Shown: positions 57,853-64,000 of the stretch, piece after piece
How the letters are laid out: each line of letters starts with the position of its first letter
Numbering within the stretch: position 1 is the stretch's first letter
NCBI RefSeq assembly: GCF_003344625.1
Contig: NZ_QPKJ02000006.1
Coordinates: forward strand, 434,001-498,000
Direction: 5' to 3'
Source of the DNA: Solirubrobacter deserti
Lineage (GTDB): Bacteria > Actinomycetota > Thermoleophilia > Solirubrobacterales > Solirubrobacteraceae
DNA: 64,000 bases
The notes under the pieces: generated by a model
What the model was told of the DNA's origin: nothing
The model's input: the letters and a program-made list of their open reading frames with translations, nothing else
Databases searched by the model: none
Program-made: the position numbers and the translations under genes

Positions 57853-58703
57853 CGGGCCAGGAGATCCTCGCGCGCAACTTCGCGGCGGGCGCGTCCGCGC
57901 CGACGGACATCGTCGTGCCCGACCGCGCGAACGTCGAGCGCGTCACGCAGGCCGCGAGCGAGTTCGGGCAGGTGCGCCCGGGTCCGTCCGGCGAGGCCGG
58001 GACCGTGCTCAGCGTGACGCTCGCGGACGCGCCGTTCTCCAACGCGGCGCTGGACACGGTCCCGCGCCTGCGGCAGGCCGTCGGCGAGGCGGGCCTCGTG
58101 GGCGGGCCCTCCGCGCAGGAATACGACCTGCGCGAGGCGGCGAACCGCGACAACCGGCTCATCCTGCCGCTCACGCTCATCGTCGTGTTCGCGATCCTGG
58201 TCCTGCTGTTGCGCGCGATGGTCGCGCCGCTGCTGCTGATCGCGTCCGTGATCGTCTCGTTCGCGGCCGCTCTGGGGGTCGGCGTGTTCGTGTCCGACTA
58301 CATCTTCGGCTTCACGGGCGTGACGCCGACGCTGCCGCTGCTTGCGTTCGTGTTCCTCGTCGCTCTCGGCATCGACTACAACATCTTCTTGATGGCCCGG
58401 GTACGCGAGGAGGCCCTCAAACACGGTACGCGCGAGGGCACGCTGCGCGGGCTGGCCGTGACCGGCGCGGTCATCACGGGCGCGGGCATCGTGCTCGCCG
58501 GGACCTTCGGCGCGCTGGCCGTGCTCCCGCTCGTGATCCTCACGCAGATCGGCTTCATCGTCGCCTTCGGCGTGCTGCTCGACACCTTCCTCGTGCGGTC
58601 GGTGATCGTCCCGGCGGCCGTGATCGACATGGGCCGCCGGGTCTGGTGGCCTTCGCGGCTAGCTAAAGAATCGAGAGATACCGCTCGAGTTCCCACGGAG
58701 TGA
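57849..58703 (+). CDS. MMPL/RND transporter, C-terminal half
   Basis: The 284-residue part starts at a GTG whose sequence overlaps the stop of the first half (GTGA). Homology continues upstream in this frame to about 57830 (F-R-G-E-V-D-S-V-T-G-Q), so the true break is near there. It holds the second porter domain and TM8-12 with A-L-G-I-D-Y-N-I-F-L-M-A-R-V-R-E-E, the conserved D-Y motif of RND pumps. It overlaps the convergent glnA end by 41 bases. If both parts are made, they could assemble as two chains. Confidence 0.7.
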   Translation: MTGQEILARNFAAGASAPTDIVVPDRANVERVTQAASEFGQVRPGPSGEAGTVLSVTLADAPFSNAALDTVPRLRQAVGEAGLVGGPSAQEYDLREAANRDNRLILPLTLIVVFAILVLLLRAMVAPLLLIASVIVSFAAALGVGVFVSDYIFGFTGVTPTLPLLAFVFLVALGIDYNIFLMARVREEALKHGTREGTLRGLAVTGAVITGAGIVLAGTFGALAVLPLVILTQIGFIVAFGVLLDTFLVRSVIVPAAVIDMGRRVWWPSRLAKESRDTARVPTE

Positions 58704-60003
58704 CCTGGACGCGATAGTCCTCCCACTCCTGGCGCTTGATCTCAATGTAGCGGTTGAAGATGTGCTCGCCGAGCGTGCGCAGCACGAGCTCGGACTCGGC
58801 GGTGACCTCGATCGCCTCGCCCAGCGTCTCCGGCAGCTGCTCGATGCCGAGCCGGCGGCGCTCGTCGGGGCTCAGGTGATAGAGGTTCTTCTCCATCGGC
58901 TCCGGCAGCTCGTAGCCGCGCTCGATCCCCTCGAGGCCCGCCTGCAGAAGCACCGCGAACGTCAGGTATGGGTTGCACGCGGGGTCTGGCGCGCGCAGCT
59001 CCATCCGGGTCGCGTTCTCCTTGCCGGGGTGGTAGAGCGGGACGCGCACGAGCGCGCTGCGGTTGCGGCGTGACCACGCGACGTAGACCGGCGCCTCGTA
59101 GCCCGGCACCAGGCGCTTGTAGGAGTTCACCCACTGGGCGAAGATGCTGCAGATCTCGCGCGCGTGGCGGAGCTGACCGGCGATGAACGCCTTGCCGATG
59201 TCGCTCAGGAAGTACTTGTCGTCCGCGTCGTAGAAGGCGTTGCGGCCGTCCTTGAACAGGGACTGGTGGGTGTGCATGCCCGAGCCGTTCTGGCCGAACA
59301 GCGGCTTGGGCATGAACGTCGCGTGCCAGCCGTACTTGAGCGCGTACTCCTTGACCGTGATGCGGTAGGTCATGCAGTCGTCGGCCATCTTGAGCGCGCT
59401 GCTGTAGCGCATGTCGATCTCGTGCTGGGACGGGCCGACCTCATGATGGGAGTACTCGACGTCGATGCCGAGGCGCTCGAGCGCGAGGACCGTGTCGCGG
59501 CGGACGTCCGAGCCGGCGTCCAGCGTCGTGAGGTCGAAGTAGCCGCCCTCGTCGAGCACCTCGGTGCCCTTGTTGTCCTTGAACAGGTAGTACTCGAGCT
59601 CCGGGCCGATGTTGAAGACATCGAAGCCCATGTCCTTCGCGCGCTGCTCGGCGCGGCGCAGCACGTGGCGCGGGTCGCCCTCGTACGGGCGGCCCTCCGG
59701 CGTCTTGACGTCGGCGAACATGCGCGCGACACCGGCCCCGTCCTCCGGCCGCCACGGCAGCACGTTGAACGTCGTCGGGTCGGGCATCGCGATCATGTCC
59801 GACTCCTCGATGGCGTTGAAGCCGGTGATCGAGGAGCCGTCGAAGCCCATGCCGCCCTCAAAGGCGTCGTCGAGCTGCTCGGCGGAGATCGAGAAGGACT
59901 TGAGCTGCCCGAGGATGTCGGTGAACCACAGGCGGATGAAGCGGATCGAGTTGTCCGCGACGAGCGCCTTGACGTCTTCGGGGGTTTGGGGGCGGTCAGA
60001 CAT
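58663..60003 (-). CDS. glnA: Glutamine synthetase type I (alpha subfamily)
   Basis: The 446-residue enzyme makes glutamine from glutamate, ammonium and ATP. Motifs: F-D-G-S-S-I-T-G-F, E-L-E-Y-Y-L-F (metal), H-H-E-V-G-P-S-Q-H-E-I-D, N-G-S-G-M-H-T-H-Q-S-L and R-M-E-L-R-A-P-D-P. Length (444 is typical of Bacillus) and the closing F-N-R-Y-I-E-I-K-R-Q-E-W-E place it in the GSI-alpha group. The adenylylation Tyr context of GSI-beta (N-L-Y-D-L-P) appears here as N-L-Y-H-L-S, so control is probably by feedback inhibition. It would assimilate the ammonium made by the nitrate genes. Confidence 0.94.
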   Translation of the reverse strand: MSDRPQTPEDVKALVADNSIRFIRLWFTDILGQLKSFSISAEQLDDAFEGGMGFDGSSITGFNAIEESDMIAMPDPTTFNVLPWRPEDGAGVARMFADVKTPEGRPYEGDPRHVLRRAEQRAKDMGFDVFNIGPELEYYLFKDNKGTEVLDEGGYFDLTTLDAGSDVRRDTVLALERLGIDVEYSHHEVGPSQHEIDMRYSSALKMADDCMTYRITVKEYALKYGWHATFMPKPLFGQNGSGMHTHQSLFKDGRNAFYDADDKYFLSDIGKAFIAGQLRHAREICSIFAQWVNSYKRLVPGYEAPVYVAWSRRNRSALVRVPLYHPGKENATRMELRAPDPACNPYLTFAVLLQAGLEGIERGYELPEPMEKNLYHLSPDERRRLGIEQLPETLGEAIEVTAESELVLRTLGEHIFNRYIEIKRQEWEDYRVQVTPWELERYLSIL

Positions 60004-61179: not shown

Positions 61180-61899
61180 TCACTGCCCGGTGGTCAGCAC
61201 CGCGATCAGCACGAGCAGGAACCCGAGCGCGACCGCGTACGCCGCGATCCGGTCCGGCCGGTGGCCGATCCGCTCCACCGCGGTCCGCGGCGCCCGCTGC
61301 GTCCGCGGCGCGGGCAGCCGGTCAGGGTGCCCGCTGATCTTGATCGTCCGGCGCTCGCGCACCTCGCCGCCCGCAGCGACGTACTCCTTGGTGTCCCTCG
61401 CCAGCTCCCCGTCGAGCATCAGCTCGTCGTACGCGCGCGGGTCATGGCCCGCGTCGTCGTAGTCCTGCGCGTGCGTGTCCGCCGCCGTGCCCGGGCCCGC
61501 GTCGCGCGAGAGCACGATCGTCCGGGTCTCGCCGGGGACCATCGGCGCCGTGTCGTCGTCGAGGTCCGCGCCCCAGGACATCATGGCCCGCGCGGCCGCG
61601 CGCGGGTCCAGCGCGCCCGTCTCGCCGGAACGCGCCGAGCGCTCGGTGCGAGCGGACACGGCGCCGCGCACCGGCGGCTCGCCCTGCTCGATCACGGCGA
61701 CGCTCGCGTCGGTCTCGTCGCGACGCAGCACGATGTCGTGGTGCTCGGCGCGCCGTTCGAAGCGCGCGACGCGGCTCGGCATGCGGTCGAAGATGTCCTC
61801 GTTGACGCCCCAGTCGGCCGCAGCACGACGGCGCCGTCGCGGCTCGTCGCTTTCGTGGTCGTACAAAGCCCGCGTATGAGCTTCTGATTCAGGGGCCAT
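61180..61899 (-). CDS. Charged, tail-anchored membrane protein under a cyclic di-AMP riboswitch
   Basis: The 239-residue protein is highly charged for its first 210 residues (Arg-rich near 20-28, acidic patches near 110-115 and 145-165) and has no Cys. It ends in one hydrophobic helix (about 217-236, A-A-Y-A-V-A-L-G-F-L-L-V-L-I-A-V-L) followed by T-T-G-Q, so it is anchored by its C-terminus with the bulk in the cytoplasm. The ATG at 61899 follows a strong purine-rich ribosome site (GAGGAAGAGGACGAG), which abuts the 3' strand of a cyclic di-AMP riboswitch. No known domain is recognised. The riboswitch suggests a role in osmotic or cell wall homeostasis. Confidence 0.8.
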   Translation of the reverse strand: MAPESEAHTRALYDHESDEPRRRRRAAADWGVNEDIFDRMPSRVARFERRAEHHDIVLRRDETDASVAVIEQGEPPVRGAVSARTERSARSGETGALDPRAAARAMMSWGADLDDDTAPMVPGETRTIVLSRDAGPGTAADTHAQDYDDAGHDPRAYDELMLDGELARDTKEYVAAGGEVRERRTIKISGHPDRLPAPRTQRAPRTAVERIGHRPDRIAAYAVALGFLLVLIAVLTTGQ

Positions 61900-61914
61900 C
61901 GACTCGTCCTCTTC

Positions 61915-62050
61915 CTCGGCTTACGGGGTTAGCTGACGGGCTCGCGCCAGAAGAGCGGCGCTACGAGGCTTGACCGACCATCGATTCGCCCCACCTGCAG
62001 TGGGTCCCCCGCTTCCCGCTTCCAACGGGAATTCAGCGGATGCGATTCGA
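61915..62050 (-). ncRNA. Cyclic di-AMP riboswitch (ydaO/yuaA type)
   Basis: On the minus strand the leader contains the conserved blocks of this riboswitch class in order: TCGCATCCGCTGAAT, GCGGGGGACCCA, GGTGGGGCGAATC, a CGTAGCGCC segment, then GAGCCCGTCAGCTAACC and CCGTAAGC. Spacing and order match the class; the last block is especially diagnostic. The 3' strand ends about 16 bases before the ATG at 61899, next to the ribosome site. Control could be by terminator choice or access to the ribosome site. Boundaries are approximate. Confidence 0.85.
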
Positions 62051-62095
62051 GATCGTACCAGCGCCGAAAGCGCCTGCACGCTTGTGCTTTTTACA

Positions 62096-62605
62096 TCAAC
62101 CGCCGGACGGAGTCTCGGCGCCCACGGACTTTGCGACAAATTTCGCGACGTCCTCGGCGTCCTTCCCCGTGAACAGCTGAGCGGGCATCTGCCCGTTTCC
62201 CTGCGAGCGGCCCTTGAGGATCGCGTCCAGCGTAAGCGCCTCATTCGGGCGCATCTCGTCGAGGTTCGGACCCACCTTCGCGACCGCGTTCGCGGCCTTC
62301 AGGGTGTGGCACATGCTGCACCGCGTGCCGAACAGCTCGTGCCCGCGCTTCTCGTCCTCCGTGAGACCGGACACCTGAGCCGACGGAATGTCGTCCCGGT
62401 TGACCTCCTCGCTGATCACCCACGCCGGCACGGCCGCGCCGAGCACGAGCAGCGCCACGAAGAACAGGAACGTCGCGAACCGGCGGCTGCCCCGCGTCTG
62501 CGAGTGCATCAGGCCGGCAAGACCGCCACGACCGCGACTCATCGCGATCACCAGCGTGATCAGGCCGAGCGCTACGAAGACCAGGACGAAAAAGAGGGTG
62601 CCCAC
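62096..62605 (-). CDS. Membrane-anchored monoheme cytochrome c
   Basis: The 169-residue protein has two N-terminal hydrophobic helices (about 3-20 and 45-65). A heme c motif C-S-M-C-H lies near residue 96 and a possible axial Met in G-Q-M-P-A-Q-L-F. A single heme c domain follows the second helix, so it faces outside. The GTG at 62605 is chosen because the hydrophobic part begins there; the open frame further upstream is not conserved-looking. It could shuttle electrons to a terminal oxidase, but no oxidase genes are adjacent. Confidence 0.85.
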   Translation of the reverse strand: MGTLFFVLVFVALGLITLVIAMSRGRGGLAGLMHSQTRGSRRFATFLFFVALLVLGAAVPAWVISEEVNRDDIPSAQVSGLTEDEKRGHELFGTRCSMCHTLKAANAVAKVGPNLDEMRPNEALTLDAILKGRSQGNGQMPAQLFTGKDAEDVAKFVAKSVGAETPSGG

Positions 62606-62779
62606 GGGCGTGCAATGTACCCGCTCGGCCGAACGGCTAGCGGCCTCCTCCCCTCCGACGGCTCCCATCTGACCACCAGACGCGCGAAATCCGGCGCCGC
62701 GCCGCGCCATCCATCACCGGCGAGACCACGGCACCGAAACAACTGTCGACGCGGCCCTGATGACGCGCTGCGGGCGCCC

Positions 62780-64000
62780 TCATCGGCGCCTCCCTGACGC
62801 GAAGCTCTGAATCGGCGGCGAGACCTGGCGGAACTCGCCGAGCGTCGACGCCGCCTCGCGCCCGCCCTGCGCGCCCTCGCCGCGCCCCGTCGCCGCCGCC
62901 TGCACGCGCCGCTCCGCGAGTTCGACCACGTCCGCCTTCACGTCGTCCGGAGTCACCAGCGCCCGCACCGCCTTGACGAACAGGTTGATCCCTCCCCCCG
63001 CCTGCGGCAGCTTCTCCAAGCGCCCCTGACACAGCAGCAACGGCTCCGACCGCACCGTCAGCCGGTTCGCCTCGTAGAGATCCGGCGGGACGATGAGGTT
63101 GATCGTCCCGAACTCATCCTCGAGCAACAGGAACACGATCCCCTTCGCCGTCCCCGGCCGCTGCCGCGCAACCACCAGCCCGCCCAACCGCACCGGTGTG
63201 TCGTGCGGAATCCGCTGCAGATCCGCGATCGACACCGTGTTCGGCGGCAACGACGGCCGCAACAGCTTCATCGGATGCGGCCCGAGCGTCAGCCCCGTCG
63301 TCGCGTAGTCGCCGATCATCGACTCCCACGGCGTGAGCGGCCGCAGATCCGGCGCCTGCGGAACATCGAGCGGCAGGGACAGCTGCGTCCCCTCCACCAC
63401 CCGCTCCCCGGGCGCCGCCACGCCCAGCTGCCACAGCGCGGTCCGCCGCGCATGCTCGGACGACCCACCCGTGAGCGAGTCGCACGCCCCCGCCCACGCC
63501 AGCTTGTCCAGCGACGGCCGCCCCGCCCCCGCCCGCGACGCCAGATCCGCCAACGAGGTGAACCGCCCGCCCTCCTCACGCGCGGCCACGAGCGCCTTGA
63601 CCTCCTCCTCCCGCACCCCCGACACGAACCCGAGCCCGAGCCGCACGATCCCCGTGGGGACGGCGCCCGCCTCGCCGCCCCCGCGGTGCGGGCCTCCCAT
63701 GCCCGCCGCGCCGCCCCCGCGGTGCGAGCCTCCCATGCCCGCCTCGCCGCCCCCGCGGTGCGGGCCTCCCATGCCCGCCTCGCCACCCCCGCGGTGCGGG
63801 CCACCCATGCCCGCCTCGCCACCCCCGCGGTGCGGGCCACCCACGCCCGCCTCGCCACCCCCGCGGTGCGGGCCACCCACGCCCGCCTCGCCGCCCCCGC
63901 GGTGCGGGCCACCCACGCCCGCCTCGCCGCCCCCGCGGTGCGGGCCACCCACGCCCGCCGTCCCGCCCCCGCGGTGCGGGCCTCCCACGCCCGCCGTGTC
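62780..64000 (-). CDS. dnaE2: Error-prone DNA polymerase III alpha-type, C-terminal part (5' end beyond window)
   Basis: The frame is open to the right edge; about 407 residues are visible. The part after the repeats matches DnaE2/ImuC C-termini: V-R-L-G-L-G-F-V-S-G-V, L-A-W-A-G-A-C-D-S-L, T-G-L-T-L-G-P-H-P-M-K-L-L-R, and the OB-fold V-A-R-Q-R-P-G-T-A-K-G-I-V-F-L-L-L-E-D-E. DnaE2 does mutagenic translesion synthesis with ImuA/ImuB (known). At least nine 12-residue repeats ([V/M]-G-G-P-H-R-G-G-G-E-A-G) lie in frame just before V-R-L-G-L. ImuA/ImuB genes are not in this window. Confidence 0.85.
   Translation of the reverse strand, partial: DTAGVGGPHRGGGTAGVGGPHRGGGEAGVGGPHRGGGEAGVGGPHRGGGEAGVGGPHRGGGEAGMGGPHRGGGEAGMGGPHRGGGEAGMGGSHRGGGAAGMGGPHRGGGEAGAVPTGIVRLGLGFVSGVREEEVKALVAAREEGGRFTSLADLASRAGAGRPSLDKLAWAGACDSLTGGSSEHARRTALWQLGVAAPGERVVEGTQLSLPLDVPQAPDLRPLTPWESMIGDYATTGLTLGPHPMKLLRPSLPPNTVSIADLQRIPHDTPVRLGGLVVARQRPGTAKGIVFLLLEDEFGTINLIVPPDLYEANRLTVRSEPLLLCQGRLEKLPQAGGGINLFVKAVRALVTPDDVKADVVELAERRVQAAATGRGEGAQGGREAASTLGEFRQVSPPIQSFASGRRR
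63665..64000. repeat. 36-bp in-frame tandem repeat (9 full units) in dnaE2
   Basis: Nine 36-base units run from 63665 to 63988, and a further partial unit reaches the window edge. Unit spacing is exact. Units differ by a few substitutions (for example CCTCCCAT versus CCACCCAC), giving Val or Met at the first residue. Each contains CCCGC-GGT-GCGGG, a small hairpin with an internal CCGCGG. There are no unique spacers, so it is not CRISPR. The array may be longer to the right. Confidence 0.92.

Follow-up and report, generated by a model that had tools for sequence, protein, structure and literature searches.

The window analysed here, a 64,000-nucleotide stretch of Solirubrobacter deserti DNA, carries on its minus strand a cyclic di-AMP (c-di-AMP) riboswitch that ends 4 bases ahead of the ATG of a 239-residue protein, and this protein looks like the anchor of an RlpA-like cell wall enzyme whose cutting part is missing. 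The aptamer's own pseudoknot falls on the predicted Shine-Dalgarno (SD) sequence of the gene, through which the switch most likely blocks translation. The case is one of a known riboswitch class with a previously proposed mechanism, located on a gene family that was not found described in the searched literature. The features, numbered from the first letter of the window, are as follows.

62096-62710, minus strand: c-type cytochrome gene, upstream context (PF13442 above cut-off)
62052-62057, minus strand: TACGAT, a -10-like promoter hexamer immediately ahead of the riboswitch (TANNNT count in the leaders of relatives)
61904-62048, minus strand: c-di-AMP riboswitch aptamer, RF00379 (cmscan 77.7 bits, gathering threshold 38)
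61950-61955, minus strand: pseudoknot hairpin-loop strand CUCUUC (complementary to 61909-61914, with compensating changes in relatives)
61907-61917, minus strand: predicted SD region including the 3' pseudoknot strand GAAGAG at 61909-61914 (RNAduplex)
61180-61899, minus strand: ORF of 239 aa with ATG start, enzyme-less membrane-anchored protein (ORF listing, homologs, dN/dS)
61771-61836, minus strand: conserved cytosolic N-terminal motif, residues 22-43, RRRRAAADWGVNEDIFDRMPSR (homolog alignment)
61510-61527, minus strand: motif copy 1, TRTIVL, residues 125-130 (seen in the alignment consensus A4)
61330-61353, minus strand: motif copy 2, RRTIKISG, residues 183-190 (homolog alignment)
61189-61257, minus strand: C-terminal membrane helix, residues 215-237 (hydropathy; AlphaFold2 helix, block pLDDT 91-96)
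58663-60003, minus strand: glutamine synthetase gene glnA, downstream context, probably with its own promoter (PF00120, 444 bits)

The riboswitch in the window

When the whole window was scanned with cmscan at the gathering threshold, RF00379 was the sole Rfam family found, with an E-value of 2.4e-16 and an untruncated match covering model positions 1-134 of 134. The E-value, together with the recurrence of the switch upstream of homologs, argues against a chance match. An earlier note on this DNA had assigned the leader to the ydaO/yuaA class of c-di-AMP riboswitches and proposed covariance scoring as a check; the score lies above the family threshold and bears out the assignment. The position given there, 61915-62050 on the minus strand, is right to within about a dozen bases, the Rfam match being 61904-62048. 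The placement of the leader beside the ribosome site of the gene agrees with the predicted SD duplex at -18 to -8 of the ATG, and the direct overlap of this site with the aptamer pseudoknot is a point absent from the earlier note. The host genome encodes a single diadenylate cyclase domain (PF02457, 97.7 bits), a match by which the bacterium is predicted to make c-di-AMP.

Conservation of the switch and its gene

Conservation was assessed in two overlapping samples of 29 and 120 loci. In the first, drawn from 61 genomes including that of the window, homologs of the protein were found in 30, and RF00379 scored above threshold in 25 of the 29 other loci. For the second, a profile of the protein (A1) matched 121 of 201 genomes of the order, from which 120 loci besides that of the window were retrieved and scanned with a covariance model built from 30 leaders; the switch lies upstream on the same strand in 92 of these homologous loci from other genomes. 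Since RF00379 is present in every one of the 201 genomes of the order, it is the position of the switch, not its presence, that counts as evidence. These counts answer the concern, raised beforehand, that homologs might never be preceded by this RNA, and the conserved position supports the proposal of a new member of the c-di-AMP regulon.

Six of the 28 loci that lack the switch have less than 600 nt of contig upstream; among the 114 loci with at least 600 nt upstream, 22 show no switch at E-values up to 1, the sole exception being two fragmentary 10-bit matches in one locus. A Solirubrobacter genome outside the 120, G005, has kept the protein beside a damaged switch of 26 bits (L010, 2528-2656). 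These 22 loci and the damaged copy indicate that control by the switch is dispensable in places. The G005 copy amounts to a natural knock-out of control.

Members of the order are little-studied bacteria of soil and freshwater, and the family is conserved across it. Sampling at class level gave matches to the protein in 20 of 149 genomes; 19 of these belong to the order, and outside it, where no clear ortholog was found, the single match was a weak one to the protein profile (G300, E 2.9e-4). Queries with the enzyme gave matches outside the order with a best E-value of 1.9e-18, as sequence matches alone. ORFs were called by a motif-based rule, which yielded none in 20 of the 120 loci, and these were excluded from the motif and length counts. 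By this rule an open frame is present in 85 enzyme-less loci, and the switch-linked enzyme-less forms range from 70 to 308 aa in length. In locus L149 (G032), searched solely in the frame as read, the switch-side start codon is not in the same frame as the membrane helix, the gene being either broken or misassembled.

Promoter, pseudoknot and ribosome site

In 87 of 93 leaders a TANNNT element begins between -22 and -2 relative to the switch, compared with 15 of 827 background windows, so the RNA probably begins at the aptamer. In the window, the loop strand CUCUUC and the tail strand GAAGAG form the loop-tail pseudoknot of RF00379 with 6 pairs. RNAduplex, run with an assumed anti-SD tail, places the SD at -18 to -8 of the ATG with -8.8 kcal/mol, and 6 nt of this duplex are shared with the pseudoknot. 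Among the 66 leaders with a called start, window included, 60 have a pseudoknot strand that shares at least 3 nt with the predicted SD, an overlap by which the switch element appears able to hide the ribosome site. The pairing itself was analysed in 90 of 97 leaders, 7 having been dropped for want of the exact anchor CAGCTAAC, and 83 of the 90 have at least five perfect loop-tail pairs. Under randomizations that leave the relatedness of the leaders in place, the mean of a leader's own loop-tail pairing, 6.18, exceeded all 1000 swaps (maximum 6.07), and for the 18 distinct leaders with a loop other than CUCUUUC the own pairing averaged 4.72 against 3.92 in shuffles, none of 5000 of which reached it. 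Three leaders (L096, L182 and L183) have no fitting pseudoknot, and in L177 a pairing was found, but outside the predicted SD. Plain minimum-energy folding of the leader did not outperform shuffled sequences (z 0.13), and in that fold the SD region is paired as well. In 71 of the 77 leaders with a called start, the start codon lies -3 to +14 nt from the end of the aptamer model, which leaves little room for a terminator.

The RNA has the same full-length covariance match as the RF00379 ydaO/yuaA class and a loop-tail pseudoknot like that of the crystallised ydaO RNA (PMC5393176). It differs from the class in that its 3' pseudoknot strand is itself the SD and the gene starts at once, with no separate expression platform. 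For the c-di-AMP switch of Corynebacterium glutamicum nlpC, PMC9960051 reports translational action and suggests that a CTCC-GGAG pseudoknot engages the ribosome site; the pseudoknot lock is therefore not new in kind. Both switches are actinobacterial and have no room for a terminator, and the present one differs in showing compensating changes between loop and SD over many genomes and in controlling a gene that is not an enzyme gene. By analogy with these two studies (PMC5393176 and PMC9960051), c-di-AMP would turn expression off. The switch thus offers a compact natural case of an aptamer's pseudoknot serving as a ribosome-site lock, with many natural variants. Literature searches found no paper joining Solirubrobacter with c-di-AMP and none joining Thermoleophilia with riboswitches; for c-di-AMP, riboswitch and RlpA together, they returned one paper, on essential genes of Clostridioides difficile.

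The 239-residue protein

The protein contains 36% D/E/K/R/H and no cysteine. Its single hydrophobic stretch reaches a 19-residue Kyte-Doolittle maximum of 2.63 from residue 218, the best value elsewhere being 0.42, and AlphaFold2, supplied with 42 homologs, gives helix 215-237 as the sole confident long element, with pLDDT below 70 for 208 of the 239 residues. Apart from this C-terminal helix, the protein is modelled as mostly disordered. No Pfam family reached its cut-off (best SutA-RBD, 13.5 bits against 29.3), no NCBIfam family was found at E 0.1, and a sequence search of solved structures returned nothing significant, with E-values of 0.7 and 0.87 only; identity with a known domain was rejected on the Pfam and NCBIfam results. 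PF03330 (DPBB) and PF01471 are absent from the protein in the Pfam scan, the chain stopping at the helix, and because no RlpA-like (DPBB) domain occurs anywhere in the 64-kb window either, the protein is not classed as RlpA. The tail-anchored build with one C-terminal helix and the lack of an enzyme domain, both read from the sequence in the earlier note, are thus confirmed by hydropathy, modelling and domain search. Its suggestion of a stand-alone new family has to be given up, as the protein resembles the anchoring portion of a wall enzyme.

Close homologs include proteins of Solirubrobacter taibaiensis, S. pauli and S. phytolaccae. Across 42 of them, there is almost no variation in the N-terminal motif, in the second copy of RT(V/I)x(I/L) or in the helix; residues 22, 28-32, 34, 35, 37-41 and 43 do not vary at all, nor do T185, I188 and G190, which are at least 90% conserved in a wider set of 26. 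In six comparisons among four Solirubrobacter genomes, dN/dS estimated by a simple counting method is 0.23-0.50 for the whole protein, and 0.09-0.43, 0.28-0.88 and 0.09-0.59 for residues 1-52, 53-160 and 161-239, respectively, values that point to purifying selection on the ORF. FHA domains recognise phosphothreonine with a hydrophobic residue at +3. This spacing is present in T185 and I188, both invariant in the 42 homologs, and the broader motif is found in 64 of 85 enzyme-less ORFs; a role of the motif as an FHA-binding phosphothreonine scaffold is speculative.

Enzyme-bearing relatives and the origin of the anchor

Of the 120 loci, 16 encode an RlpA-like (DPBB) domain, 12 of them in genus g13 and the others in g9, g6, g17 and g35; none was found in the remaining 104. 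The ORF continues for 164-252 residues beyond the helix in 15 of the 16, L157 having been missed by the ORF rule, and the 7 that were scanned with Pfam all contain PG_binding_1 (PF01471) and DPBB_1 (PF03330) above cut-off. Among the loci counted as enzyme-less, L176 (G149) is probably enzyme-bearing, as its contig ends inside the outer part and residues 1-138 match the enzyme-bearing G050 protein. The idea that the enzyme had merely split off nearby was rejected, no RlpA-like domain being present in the retrieved stretches of the 104 enzyme-less loci. With the enzyme-bearing versions, RlpA-like (DPBB) transglycosylases of the same order, the gene shares an anchor module, that is, the same switch, a PDR-type signal-anchor helix and a similar neighbourhood with glnA downstream. 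It differs from those RlpA-like enzymes that have a peptidoglycan-binding domain in having neither PF03330 nor PF01471; the window protein retains only the cytosolic tail and the helix. Solirubrobacter has a further RlpA-like gene (G000:C1, about 37% identity to the G050 protein), which is not among the RF00379 sites of its genome.

A sister family, f3, was sampled through 20 loci picked by similarity to the G050 enzyme, one of which, L210, is an f2 gene without a switch. The switch is present in 19 of the 20, and the ORFs, where complete, look like a signal peptide, a repeat and a DPBB domain, as in a secreted RlpA-like enzyme. In this sample 15 of 20 loci have glnA downstream in the same orientation, and the cytochrome gene was not found in any of the 20. 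In further f3 genomes, RF00379 was seen just upstream of small RlpA-like genes (L219, L220, L233 and L235), which suggests that RlpA-like proteins are regularly targeted by the c-di-AMP switch in the order.

A glnA tree was built from 117 rows, comprising the window and 116 of the 127 loci with a glnA match, the 11 with a matched stretch below 330 residues being left out. On this tree the enzyme state changes at least 8 times, and 4 of the changes are forced by well-supported branches. Genus g35 looks like the clearest case of enzyme loss: G050 and G123 have the enzyme part, and G135 has a 73-aa stub under the same switch, apparently after a recent loss. Repeated loss of the enzyme part is likely. 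The ectodomain trees are weakly resolved; the f1 forms group together with the switch-less, secreted f2 gene L210 among them (92/80), and the enzyme-bearing f1 domains of g13, g9, g6 and g17 fall on one side of a weak branch (65/69), away from 13 paralogs (98/98). Because these trees place L210 with the f1 forms, late fusion of the enzyme part may also account for the pattern. The motif RTVxIxG occurs in 64 of 85 enzyme-less against 2 of 15 enzyme-bearing ORFs. Part of the tail may accordingly be younger than the anchor, and the distribution may mean that a role was acquired when the enzyme was lost or afterwards.

Other switches in the genome and the probable link to the cell wall

The genome has 5 RF00379 matches. 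Of the four besides the window's, those at L001, L004 and L005 precede ORFs with Pfam matches to PG_binding_1, to Transglycosylas and PG_binding_1, and to Peptidase_M23 and PG_binding_1, respectively; the ORF behind the L003 switch has no Pfam match, and by eye we presume it to be NlpC/P60-like. As three of the four other switch-controlled genes encode wall-related Pfam domains, the window's gene is the odd one out. The wall half of the wall or turgor regulator envisaged at the outset gains support from these three genes and from the RlpA-like versions of the gene itself; the turgor half does not, and nothing in the analysis speaks for a link to potassium or turgor transport. The actinobacterial c-di-AMP regulon accordingly gains a non-enzyme family, apparently derived from, or belonging with, a wall enzyme. 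Should the stub prove functional, it would have been worthwhile to keep the cytosolic side of a wall-enzyme gene without its enzyme, and the link between c-di-AMP and the wall machinery would become directly testable.

Proposed mechanism and alternative explanations

In the preferred explanation, the gene's own promoter would yield an mRNA that starts at the c-di-AMP aptamer. With c-di-AMP bound, the pseudoknot of loop CUCUUC with GAAGAG would hold the SD and keep translation of the ORF off; when c-di-AMP is scarce, the pseudoknot would open and the ORF would be translated. The product would be the anchor half, cytosolic tail and signal-anchor helix, of a gene whose extracellular part in relatives, a peptidoglycan-binding domain with an RlpA-like lytic transglycosylase, is gone in the window. 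At low c-di-AMP, the retained tail with its short motifs would sit at the membrane's inner face and serve wall work as scaffold or regulator; the enzyme-less form is accordingly taken, as an interpretation, to be a membrane-tethered regulator or scaffold. Taken as a whole, from promoter through pseudoknot lock to enzyme-less anchor, this explanation is considered moderately probable. A more specific form, in which the enzyme was lost repeatedly, the switch, tail and helix are held by selection, the tail is a signalling scaffold and c-di-AMP sets its amount at the membrane, is tentative and on the doubtful side; phosphorylation at RT(V/I)x(I/L) and binding by an FHA-type partner would be a speculative example.

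The evolutionary direction may be the reverse, with an older anchor protein to which the RlpA-like part was fused later in some lineages, so that Solirubrobacter never had an enzyme anchor. All f2 and f4 loci in the 120-locus set lack the enzyme part, the free-standing f2 enzyme groups with the f1 ectodomains and RTVxIxG belongs chiefly to enzyme-less forms, all as such a fusion would predict; yet in the sister family f3 the corresponding position is occupied by switch, RlpA-like protein and glnA, the f1 enzyme domains of four genera share one side of a branch, albeit a weak one, and G135 resembles a recent loss, which together make late fusion rather unlikely. Decay of the ORF into a functionless remnant, with the switch alone persisting, would fit the missing enzyme part, the disorder in the model and the wide range of lengths, but it is at odds with the dN/dS values, the near-invariant motifs, the open frames in 85 enzyme-less loci and the retention of the gene in three families of the order, and has a slim chance of being correct.

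Two further alternatives concern the action of the switch. Control by transcription attenuation or termination has precedents, since PMC9960051 describes terminated transcripts in vitro with c-di-AMP for Streptomyces coelicolor rpfA and a Bacillus subtilis c-di-AMP switch that terminates transcription; the short distance from aptamer to start codon and a pseudoknot that itself covers the SD speak against it here, and it is judged unlikely. The switch could instead serve mainly the genes downstream as far as glnA, the small ORF being a leader reading frame, as 112 of 120 loci have glnA downstream in the same orientation, in some about 10-120 nt from the ORF. Against this, 68 of 110 loci have TANNNT between -22 and -8 relative to the start of glnA, compared with 16 of 1100 in the background, none of these 68 genes has an SD-like sequence, and the window's own glnA has TAGCCT at -16; glnA therefore seems to have its own promoter and is probably leaderless, for which reason it is not assigned to the switch, and the purifying selection indicated for the small ORF points the same way. 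A glnA operon under the switch was rated low after this promoter count, and a switch serving chiefly glnA is very improbable. Hiding of the ribosome site upstream of the anchor gene remains the preferred reading of the switch.

Neighbouring genes

The cytochrome gene precedes the switch-linked gene in the same orientation in 104 of 120 loci, and an HxlR gene is a neighbour in 73 of 120. Across the order, glnA mostly looks leaderless, with TANNNT 12-16 nt ahead of its start codon. Farther upstream in the window, at 63664-63995 on the minus strand, a 36-bp tandem repeat of 9.2 copies with 95% match lies in frame inside the ORF at 62780-63988, the remainder of which has helix-hairpin-helix and OB-fold matches resembling the C-terminal end of the DNA polymerase III alpha subunit.
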